Shown here one piece after another: positions 9,827 to 15,209 of a stretch of DNA of 64,000 bases. This DNA comes from Candidatus Cloacimonadota bacterium (GTDB lineage Bacteria; Cloacimonadota; Cloacimonadia; Cloacimonadales; WRIO01), in NCBI GenBank assembly GCA_009777575.1, contig WRLO01000005.1:1-64000 (forward strand), in the 5' to 3' direction. Both the position numbers and the translations under genes were made by a program. The notes beneath the pieces were generated by a model. That model saw only the letters and a program-made list of their open reading frames with translations. It did not search any database and was not told the origin of the DNA. How positions within the stretch are numbered: the stretch's first letter is position 1; each line of letters starts with the position of its first letter.

Positions 9827-10335
9827 AGTGACACGGAGATTGCTTCGTGAGAATAGCAAGAAGGAACCTCGCAAGGACGGGTGGAGGGGTAGTGACACGG
9901 AGATTGCTTCGTGAGAATAGCAAGAAGGAACCTCGCAAGTACGGGAAGGGGTAGGGACACGGAGATTGCTTCGTGAGAATAGCAAGAAGGAACCTCGCAA
10001 TGACGGGTGGAGGGGTAGTGACACGGAGATTGCTTCGTGAGAATAGCAAGAAGGAACCTCGCAAGGACGGGCTGGGGAAATAGCGACACGGAGATTGCTT
10101 CAGAGGGATAGCAAGAAGTGACCTCGCAACGACGGACGGGGGGAATAGTGACATGGAGATTGCTGGGGAATTAAGAATTAAGAATTAAGAATTAAGAATT
10201 TTAAGACCTTTCACTGCGTTCAAGGTGACAGGGGGGAGTAACACGGAGATTGCTTCGGGGGGAGTTTAAAATGAGGGACCTCGCAACGACGGGATTTTTG
10301 ATAGTGACACGGAGATTGCTTCAAGGGGACCAAAA
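9827..10335. repeat. Tandem/dispersed array of a 62-65-bp repeat (ACACGGAGATTGCTTCG...GCAAGAAGGAACCTCGCAA.GACGGG)
   Basis: Units begin at 9831, 9895, 9957, 10021, 10086 and 10151, with partial copies near 10231 and 10305; includes an 8-bp AATTAAGA microsatellite around 10170-10200. Confidence 0.95.
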
Positions 10336-10337
10336 TC

Positions 10338-11756
10338 CTATTTCAGCAACACCATTCTTCGAACAAAAACATCATCATCTGTCTGCATTTGATAAAAATA
10401 AACACCACTTCCTACATTTCTACCATTGTTGTCTGAACCATTCCAGATTACATTATGCTCTCCTGCAGAATATTCATTATTAACTAAAGATTTTACAAGT
10501 TGACCCTTGATGTTGTAGATACTTATATTCACATTGCCAGCTTTAGCAACAGAAAAGCTAATCGTAGTCTCTGGATTAAATGGATTCGGATAGTTGCCAA
10601 TCAATTCTGTTCTTGCTACGACATAATCATCATATTCAGAGACACTACCCCATATTACAGGTCTATCGTCTATATTCCAGCCTTCTTGCCAACCTTCTGG
10701 TTGGCTTTCTGCTTCTGCATATATTGTTAAAATGGGGCAATCCCTGAAGGCAGCATAGTATATACTTGTTACACTGCTAGGGATAAAGATATATGATAGA
10801 TTTGTGCAGCTGTAGAATGCTCCAGAATCTATGCTTATCACACTATTAGGGACAATTAAAGAAGTTAAATTAGTGGAACCAACGAAGGCCCCAGAACTTA
10901 TTCTTGTTACATTATTTGGGATGACACTATTCTTTGTTCCAGAGATCAATTCATTGTCTGAATTCCTAATTAGACTATTCCCTTCACCTCTGAAATAATT
11001 GTTTTCAGGAGAAACTAATATAGTTTCGAGACTTGAGCAGAAAGTAAAAGGATTACTGATTATAGTAGCCACATTGTTTGGGATAGTGATAGTAGTTAAA
11101 CTATTACATCCAGCAAAAACATCTGGTTGTATAAAAGTCAAGCTTTCTGGTAAAGAGATATCAGATAAGGATGTGCAATATCTGAATGCTAATCGTTCGA
11201 TGATTGTAACGCTTTCTGGGATAATGACATTGTTCAAATTAGTACACCACTCGAAAGCATTTTCACCAATCCTTGTCACACCAATGGGAATGATTATTGA
11301 TGTTAAACTTTCGCAATTTGAGAATCCCCATCGTCCAATACTTGTTATGTTTTCAGATAAAGTGACTGAGGTTAAACCACTGCAACCTGTAAAAGCAAAA
11401 TTCTCTATCCTTGTCACACTGTTAGGAATATTTATAGATGTTAAATTAGAAGACAATCTAAATGCATTCTCTCCAATAATTGTCACACTATCTGGTATGT
11501 GAATAGAGGTCATGGTATAAAACTCAGAAAACCCCATACGAGCTATTCTTGTGACCGGTAAACCATCGTAAGTATCAGGAATTTCTATATGAGCTTCATT
11601 GGCTGTGCCTTTACGAACCTCATAAGCAGTTCCATCATCAATCAAAGTAAATGACAGTCCTGGTGTGCCTTGCGCTAATAAACTTATGGCATTAAATAGC
11701 AAAATAACAAGGAATATGTAATTACATTTTCCTAAAATAGTCTTTTTTCTTTTCAT
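10338..11756 (-). CDS. BspA-type leucine-rich-repeat surface protein with FlgD-like/T9SS-type C-terminal sorting domain
   Basis: Repeated SVT.IG..AF..C..L..I.IP.SVT units (LRR_5); C-terminus GNYPNPFNPETTISFSV...GVYFYQMQTDDDVFVRRMVLLK; N-terminal signal peptide. Confidence 0.9.
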   Translation of the reverse strand: MKRKKTILGKCNYIFLVILLFNAISLLAQGTPGLSFTLIDDGTAYEVRKGTANEAHIEIPDTYDGLPVTRIARMGFSEFYTMTSIHIPDSVTIIGENAFRLSSNLTSINIPNSVTRIENFAFTGCSGLTSVTLSENITSIGRWGFSNCESLTSIIIPIGVTRIGENAFEWCTNLNNVIIPESVTIIERLAFRYCTSLSDISLPESLTFIQPDVFAGCNSLTTITIPNNVATIISNPFTFCSSLETILVSPENNYFRGEGNSLIRNSDNELISGTKNSVIPNNVTRISSGAFVGSTNLTSLIVPNSVISIDSGAFYSCTNLSYIFIPSSVTSIYYAAFRDCPILTIYAEAESQPEGWQEGWNIDDRPVIWGSVSEYDDYVVARTELIGNYPNPFNPETTISFSVAKAGNVNISIYNIKGQLVKSLVNNEYSAGEHNVIWNGSDNNGRNVGSGVYFYQMQTDDDVFVRRMVLLK

Positions 11757-11796
11757 AATTAAAACCTTTTTTTATTTTTTTGATACTTAACTAAGT

Positions 11797-11813
11797 AGCA
11801 AGAAGTGTGCCAA
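11797..11813 (-). promoter_or_regulatory. Candidate sigma-54 promoter
   Basis: Minus strand TTGGCACACTTCTTGCT: -24 GG and -12 GC separated by exactly 10 nt; about 40 bp upstream of the LRR protein start. Confidence 0.65.
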
Positions 11814-11951
11814 ACTTAACAAATAATGTGAAATTGATGTGTAGTTTAATAGTATAATCCTTATTTATTGTAATTACAGTCTCTTACAATGATAATATTA
11901 TTTTTTGGAGTATTTATTTATGAATATTTTTATAGGATTCTGGTTGATTTT

Positions 11952-12002
11952 CTGTCCAAAAAAATGGACAGATTTAATATAAGTGTCCATAAAAATGGAC
12001 AC
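11952..12002. promoter_or_regulatory. Pair of palindromic candidate activator sites (UAS)
   Basis: CTGTCCA-AAAAAA-TGGACAG (11952-11971) and GTGTCCA-TAAAAA-TGGACAC (11983-12002); same 7-6-7 architecture, centres 31 bp apart. Confidence 0.6.
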
Positions 12003-12150
12003 CTGCATTAAAAAGAGATTGTCGCATAGTGAAAAAATACTGTCATCATACAAAAAAGAATTGTTTTCATTCTTGGTGTTGATGGAGTATAATGAGCGAT
12101 TCTGAGCGGATCGAAGAATCTAAAGACCTTTCACTATTAAACGTCCCACA

Positions 12151-12206
12151 CCTTCGGTGTGCGTAAGGTATGATTTTATGAAAATATACCTTACACACAC
12201 CGAAGG
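12151..12206. repeat. Inverted repeat, 21-bp arms with one mismatch
   Basis: CCTTCGGTGTGCGTAAGGTAT / ATACCTTACACACACCGAAGG. Confidence 0.9.
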
Positions 12207-12314
12207 TATCGGTTCAAGAGATATGAGGCTATGCGAATAGCTCGCAAAATTACCTCAATAGAAAATAGTATACACTAAATTACCCTAGCCTGAAGGGGTG
12301 GATCTCGTCAAAGT

Positions 12315-12335
12315 CCCACCCCTTCGGGGTGGGAG
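12315..12335. repeat. Strong GC-rich hairpin downstream of hldE-like gene (possible terminator)
   Basis: TCCCACCCC-TTC-GGGGTGGGA, 9-bp perfect stem. Confidence 0.7.
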
Positions 12336-12370
12336 ATGGCGTTAAATGTCGTTTTCTATTAAAAGCCACA

Positions 12371-13369
12371 TCACCTTCGGGATGTGCAAAGAATATCATT
12401 AACAGTAGCAGGATGAATACCTCTTTTCCCACAAACAGCTCCAGCTGCATGATTTGCAATAATAGCAGAAGTTTTTATATCTAATCCCACTGATAAACAA
12501 AGTGTCAAAACGCTTATCACTGTATCGCCAGCTCCAGACACATCAAAGACCTCTTTAGCAAATGTCGGAATATGAGATACATTATTATTCTTATCAAAAA
12601 TCTTTAGTCCTTTTTCTCCCAATGTGATTATGAGATGATCCGGATTTATCCTTTTAAAAAGTTCATAAGCAGCAACATTTAAGCTTTCATCATCTAATAT
12701 TTCTATATTTAAATTTTTCTGTAATTCATTGAAATTTGGCTTAAATACAGTGCAATATTGATATTCAAAAAAGTTTTTGAATTTGGGGTCAACAGTTACA
12801 GGGATTTTTAATTCATTTGCTTTATAAATAGCTTTTCGAATGATCTTTGAAGTTAATAACCCCTTATTATAGTCTTCTATCAAGAGAGCATCAGCGTTTT
12901 CAAGTGCTGAATCAATATTTTTTAAGATTGAGTTCTCAATACATTCTGATATATCGTTTTTTTGCTCTTGATCGTATCTCATCACTTGTTGAGCAGAAGC
13001 AAAAATCCTTGATTTCACGGTTGTGGGTCTTGAATTGTCTTTGATGATAAAATCTGTCCGAATATTTTTTTCTTTAAACAAAGATAGCAATATTTCAGAA
13101 TAATTGTCATCTCCTATTAAACCTATAACTACAGGCATAGCTTTAAGAGAAATGATATTGTTGACCACATTTGCTGCACCACCAAGACAGAAATCTTGTT
13201 TGTAAATATCAACGATAGGGACAGGTGCCTCAGGAGAAATTCTCTCGACCTGTCCCCATAAATAATGGTCTATCATCAGATCACCGATGACAGCTATTTT
13301 TTTTTCTTTAAAACCTTCAAAAATAGAAAGTAGTTTGTTCTTATCGATTTTATGATTTGATAATATCAT
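12371..13369 (-). CDS. rfaE1: D-glycero-beta-D-manno-heptose-7-phosphate kinase (RfaE domain I)
   Basis: IAVIGDLMIDHYLWGQVERISPEAPVPIVD and DVSGAGDTVISVL pfkB-type motifs. Confidence 0.92.
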   Translation of the reverse strand: MILSNHKIDKNKLLSIFEGFKEKKIAVIGDLMIDHYLWGQVERISPEAPVPIVDIYKQDFCLGGAANVVNNIISLKAMPVVIGLIGDDNYSEILLSLFKEKNIRTDFIIKDNSRPTTVKSRIFASAQQVMRYDQEQKNDISECIENSILKNIDSALENADALLIEDYNKGLLTSKIIRKAIYKANELKIPVTVDPKFKNFFEYQYCTVFKPNFNELQKNLNIEILDDESLNVAAYELFKRINPDHLIITLGEKGLKIFDKNNNVSHIPTFAKEVFDVSGAGDTVISVLTLCLSVGLDIKTSAIIANHAAGAVCGKRGIHPATVNDILCTSRR

Positions 13370-14773: not shown

Positions 14774-14915
14774 AAATACTCCATACTCAAAAAATATTCA
14801 ATATCTTTCCTTTAAAATATTGGAAAGATAGACAAAAAAAAATATGTAGTCATTTTGTCAACTAAATCAATAAAAAAAAAGTTAACATACATAAATATTA
14901 ATATCTCTCTAATAC

Positions 14916-15153
14916 GGATTTGGAAATCGGAGATTTCTGCTACGGAAAATAATCATTTTTGGAAATCGGAGATTTCTGCTACGGCAAATAATCATTTTTG
15001 GAAATCGGAGGTTTCTGCTACGGAAAATAATCATTTTTGGAAATCGGAGATTTCTGCTACGGAAAATAATCATTTTTGGAAATCGGAGATTTCTGCTACG
15101 GAAAATAATCATTTTTGGAAATCGGAGATTTCTGCTACGGAAAATAATCATTG
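14916..15153. repeat. Six tandem copies of a 39-bp hairpin-containing repeat in the purF/glmL divergent intergenic region
   Basis: tggaaatcggagatttctgctacggaaaataatcatttt begins at 14921, 14960, 14999, 15038, 15077 and 15116; each contains GAAATC-GGA-GATTTC. Confidence 0.97.
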
Positions 15154-15209
15154 ACTTATGAACGATAAATTTTATTTTGGCAAAGTTAAGTAAAAAAAGG
15201 ATAGATTAA

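Follow-up and report, generated by a model that had tools for sequence, protein, structure and literature searches.

Which signals control the gene for the BspA-like secreted protein encoded at 10338-11756 on the minus strand of the 64,000-nt Cloacimonadota sequence analysed here (the window), and do they serve that gene alone? The 472-aa ORF matches LRR_5 at 215 bits and has a C-terminal FlgD_ig / type IX secretion (T9SS type A sorting) domain. The original prediction placed upstream of it a -24/-12 element of GG-N10-GC geometry, its GC about 40 bp before the ATG, and two 7-6-7 palindromes with centres 31 bp apart that had no counterpart elsewhere in the window. It took these for a sigma-54 promoter with tandem enhancer-binding-protein (bEBP) sites, and proposed that expression of the surface protein may be specifically switched. 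All of these elements were recovered exactly. The -24/-12 element TGGCAC-ACTTC-TTGC (TGGCACACTTCTTGC; 11798-11812, minus strand) is an exact match to TGGCAC-N5-TTGC and the sole mismatch-free match to this consensus in the window, and its GC lies 41-42 bp before the ATG (11756). The proximal operator CTGTCCA-AAAAAA-TGGACAG (11952-11971) and the distal operator GTGTCCA-TAAAAA-TGGACAC (11983-12002), both proposed activator sites, are exact palindromes with centres 31 bp apart at -158 and -189 from the -24 element, and are the only exact TGTCCA-N6-TGGACA matches in the window. From the usual sigma-54 spacing, transcription is predicted to start at 11786-11787 on the minus strand, some 12 bp past the -12 GC, and a likely ribosome-binding site, AAAGG, is found at 11765-11769 on the same strand, 8 nt before the ATG. 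Our analysis indicates that minus-strand 11757-12002 is very probably a sigma-54 promoter of a pilin regulon that came to precede the BspA-like gene and that would act by the mechanism set out below.

We searched the host genome (3.76 Mb in 198 contigs, with the window on contig C5) by pattern and by stretches. Exact TGTCCA-N6-TGGACA was found at nine places, eight of which form four tandem pairs with spacings of 31-32 bp, each pair 150-189 bp from an identical 15-bp -24/-12 element. All tandem palindromes in the genome are tied to such elements, no further tandem pair was present, and a reversed control of the pair pattern gave 0 matches. The ninth, single palindrome (contig C47) sits within a coding ORF and was rejected as a module. 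The palindromes are thus neither frequent nor unrelated to -24/-12 sites. The three remaining modules (contigs C40, C60 and C67) directly precede a pilin-like gene starting MGTQQILMIVLSVIIVGAAVAVGIQMF. All three are at contig ends, with each contig breaking inside the pilin-like gene, as expected from near-identical copies. LRR_5 matches were found on 14 contigs, and the module is present only at the window's gene. This supports a PilSR-like sigma-54 module, as judged by sequence, that is common to three pilin-like genes and one LRR gene, and suggests that the BspA-like surface protein may be made together with pili. The predicted sigma-54 switch therefore stands, but it is not specific to the BspA-like gene, as three pilin-like genes share the module. 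Since the genus of the host is represented by one genome in the dataset, the module at a BspA-like gene is known from one genome.

Alignment of the four copies showed that the -24/-12 block with its flanks is identical at 19/19 positions in every pair, and the operators at 17-20/20. In the downstream half of the spacer, identity between the C5 copy and the others falls to as low as 31-36/68, and the stretch from the -12 element to the ATG is conserved at 47 of 47-48 positions in the pilin copies and at 26 in C5. Because the operators and the -24/-12 element were kept while the remainder decayed, the C5 copy looks like an old duplicate. Such a duplicate could also be a relic, a pilin promoter copied upstream of the BspA-like gene that no longer drives it, and C5 is indeed the most diverged copy (26/47 matches between -12 and ATG). 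We consider this quite improbable, as the decay has spared the -24/-12 element and every operator arm, and as a plausible ribosome-binding site precedes the gene start, which is 41-42 bp downstream of the element's GC.

The exact tandem TGTCCA pair was not found outside the host genome in a search of 125 genomes of the phylum, because relatives carry a relaxed half-site form, TGTC-N10-GACA. A -24/-12 element scoring at least 9/10 was present in 64/123 upstream regions of the pilin-like family, compared with 46/2460 random windows of the same loci. Within 300 bp upstream of these elements, matches to TGTC-Nk-GACA (one mismatch allowed) were most numerous at k=10 (38/75; shuffles, 4.2 ± 2.6), and after redundancy removal the N10 form was present in 34/70, against 10.7% of random windows. 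The consensus operator of the phylum is TGTCAT-N6-ATGACA. Operators are concentrated 125-175 bp away from the -24 element and tandem spacings are mostly 29-34 bp, with some of 62-64 bp; the window has its operators at -158 and -189, with a spacing of 31 bp. Phased inverted repeats some 100-200 bp upstream therefore recur at several sigma-54 promoters, as bEBP sites do. Counting against this reading, roughly half of the sigma-54 pilin promoters in the phylum lack an operator even when one mismatch is allowed. When 123 genomes were searched for a perfect -24/-12 element accompanied by a single, slightly relaxed operator, 16 distinct places emerged outside the host genome, 11 of which precede a pilin-like gene (reversed control, 0); the others include a secreted-protein gene beside another activator (L258) and a CheW gene (L269). 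Perfect sigma-54 sites apparently not followed by a pilin gene, intended as a negative control, numbered only four in the fetched loci; at least two of these turned out to serve a pilin gene after all, through a longer leader, and the set was therefore of no use as a control.

The pilin-like family (MGTQQILxIVLSVIIVG...) was found in 89/123 Cloacimonadota genomes with a profile built from 36 members. A scan of named genomes gave 80 loci (L101-L180), nearly all in records titled Cloacimonadota, a distribution that places the host in this phylum; records titled Neomarinimicrobiota (L112, L151), Gemmatimonadetes (L164, L167) and Ignavibacteriales (L173) also hold the family (MGTQQILLIVLSVIIVG). 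We use the name pilin-like because the proteins lack the classical type IV pilin motif with E5 (MGTQQILLIV... has no E5) and no curated pilin model scores above its cut-off: Pfam and NCBIfam models gave nothing above cut-off for the members scanned, and Pfam Pilin_N reached 14.3 bits against a cut-off of 25.2. The AlphaFold model of L116:5231-5653 (pLDDT 90) has a 54-residue N-terminal helix (residues 2-55) followed by four strands, the long helix and antiparallel sheet typical of type IV pilins, and its best Foldseek match in the PDB was full-length PAK pilin (1oqw, TM 0.61, with a weak E of 0.017). In relatives the pilin-like gene is followed by T2SSF (PilC-like) and T2SSE (PilB-like) genes. 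This agrees with a PilSR-type system, whose target is a pilin-like type IV subunit accompanied by assembly genes for PilB and PilC; three of the four modules precede a pilin-like gene. The host genome also has full-length copies at C13:42922 and C13:43604 (G000:C13:42922-44045), and C-terminal pieces of further copies at the ends of contigs C17, C140 and C81. The C13:43604 copy alone among the C13 pilin-like genes has its own perfect -24/-12 element; these genes have no exact operators, which counts against our preferred explanation.

Sigma-54 promoters need a bEBP. The original prediction called for rpoN and a bEBP gene, and both were found in the host genome. The rpoN product matches TIGR02395 at 312 bits, above the cut-off, and the -24/-12 consensus is evidently in use, since other, non-repeat sites precede flbD, rod/hook, fliD, flhA, fliJ and flgI genes. 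Four clear activators are encoded, on contigs C74 (NtrC/NtrX-like, with a kinase), C18 (with a kinase), C22 and C19. The C22 activator (G000:C22:41145-42533) is an NtrC-family response regulator with a histidine kinase gene just upstream; it scored 399 bits with AtoC and 377 bits with PEP_resp_reg (TIGR02915), both below cut-off, and is a putative PilR-type activator. The C19 activator (G000:C19:22299-23402 = L068:3800-4903) is an AAA-HTH protein without a receiver domain and a paralog of C22, with 47% identity. In relatives, the activators that adjoin pilin genes are mostly of the C22 type (55-60% identical), and several genomes share the order kinase - activator - [sigma-54] - pilin - T2SSF - T2SSE. 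G002, from the same family as the host genome, has a C22 ortholog (59%) 389 bp ahead of its pilin gene. Across 40 genomes, a C22-type activator and the pilin either occurred together or were both missing in 36 (26 with both, 10 with neither, 3 with pilin only and 1 with activator only; Fisher P = 3.4e-6, with relatedness of the genomes ignored).

The four-copy module, the phylum-wide operator geometry, and the presence of rpoN and PilR-like activators together support the predicted layout of tandem bEBP sites at a sigma-54 promoter. Drawing on established bEBP biology for binding, looping, the kinase signal, expression and the identity of the acting activator, we infer the following scheme. 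A PilR-type NtrC-family response regulator, most likely C22, would be phosphorylated by the kinase encoded just upstream of it, bind both palindromes as phased dimers and oligomerise. It would then loop to sigma-54 RNA polymerase at TGGCAC-N5-TTGC and drive open-complex formation, so that the surface protein would be co-produced with the three pilin-like subunits. The elements, their recurrence and their conservation across the phylum are well supported, and on this reading the surface protein is most likely produced when the pilins are.

The step in this scheme with the strongest competitor is the choice of activator. A genuine sigma-54 module could instead be served by C19 or another bEBP, in which case control would be independent of a kinase acting on a receiver domain. 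The HTH region of C19 is similar to that of C22, the C22 gene lies in the host genome at a contig end after Rnf-like genes with no adjoining pilin gene, and a similar module in G086 has another activator next to it. We regard this as unlikely, as relatives pair the pilin with a C22-type activator, whose presence tracks that of the pilin, whereas no comparably close relative of C19 was found among the matches listed in relatives. The palindromes themselves might act otherwise than as activator sites. Palindromes of such size would also suit a repressor or some other factor with no part in sigma-54 activation, but their position 125-190 bp upstream and their helical phasing at sigma-54 promoters, conserved in the phylum, fit activator sites and make a repressor very unlikely. 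Both also fold strongly as RNA (z ~ -7) and the proximal palindrome is predicted as a plus-strand terminator, as RNA hairpins, terminators or parts of a dispersed repeat might be. Their location, however, is upstream of the predicted start; in the host genome they always come in pairs tied to -24/-12 elements, and in relatives their counterparts are imperfect TGTC-N10-GACA half-sites separated by a constant spacer, not long stems. No Rfam family reached threshold for them, and we rejected an RNA hairpin or Rfam element as extremely unlikely. A role as terminator of the gene upstream of the operators, a pfkB-family kinase gene, was ruled out because that gene ends at 12371, some 370 bp away.

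Sigma-54 activation by a PilR-type regulator, the mechanism preferred here, belongs to a familiar class (PilSR/sigma-54). What is new is the phylum in which it is placed, the consensus of the operator and the LRR surface protein that has been recruited. Control of pilA by PilS-PilR and sigma-54 in Pseudomonas and Geobacter likewise combines a response-regulator bEBP, a sigma-54 promoter and a pilin target, and the half-site TGTC reportedly agrees with the Pseudomonas PilR sites of Jin et al. 1994. In G. sulfurreducens pilR lies directly upstream of the sigma-54 pilA gene (PMC2725144), as the activator gene does upstream of the pilin gene in Cloacimonadota relatives. PilR sites are marked by TGT-N11-AGA and GTCT elements (PMC6058289). 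The system described here differs from PilS-PilR in its phylum, in its TGTC-N10-GACA palindromes in tandem about 31 bp apart and in a pilin without the E5 motif; furthermore, the linked kinase in a relative matches HisKA/HATPase and not 6TM_PilS, which is matched by another nearby gene. Surface-exposed non-pilin proteins are reported to be under the pilin activator PilR in Dichelobacter nodosus (PMC6058289), whereas the target proposed here from sequence is an LRR protein of BspA type that carries a type IX secretion tail. Sigma-54 activation of secreted surface proteins also recalls PrsK-PrsR / RpoN, in which a related response regulator is reported to activate PEP-CTERM surface proteins (PMC9850573); C22 matches TIGR02915 but remains below its cut-off of 502.6, and no PEP-CTERM target was seen here. 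A literature search returned no paper joining Cloacimonadota and sigma-54, and among papers on Cloacimonadota pilin or type IV pili, in the portions available, none describes such a module.

Two loci in relatives resemble the module in the window. In G086 (L258:1500-3154) the gene for a different activator is followed by TGTCCGGAAAACAGGACA, a perfect -24/-12 element and a secreted-protein gene; this is a parallel case of a predicted surface protein under a similar module. In G001 (L269:568-1098) a tandem operator and a sigma-54 element precede a CheW gene, with a short ORF between. We propose tentatively, and with less than even confidence, that the Cloacimonadota pilin activator commands a wider surface-remodelling regulon, in which the TGTC-N10-GACA / sigma-54 module would spread by duplication and recruit the BspA-like LRR protein, the G086 secreted protein and the G001 CheW, so that surface proteins, chemotaxis and pili would be switched together. 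For an uncultured phylum, the module defines a testable regulon whose targets, promoter and operator consensus are specified and for whose activator and kinase there are candidates. It connects the production of pili with a secreted BspA-like protein and draws attention to a pilin-like family, found throughout the phylum, that has no Pfam or NCBIfam name. The predicted co-expression is directly testable in metatranscriptomes of the anaerobic habitats that hold these bacteria.

The window also contains several repeats. A dispersed repeat with TGGCACGGAGATTGC, a perfect match to the sigma-54 consensus, lies at 9829-10319 and has 75 exact matches in the genome; the copies in the window have 1-2 mismatches. 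This repeat would swamp naive -24/-12 scans, and its 75 genomic matches were rejected as promoters. Long inverted repeats of the cacaccttcggtgtg type are found at 12131-12223 and 12283-12340, between the kinase gene and the operators, and gave only sub-threshold matches in an Rfam scan. Between two genes, 14855-15154 holds short tandem repeats with open frames on both strands (ENNHFWKSEISAT / MIIFRSRNLRFPK).
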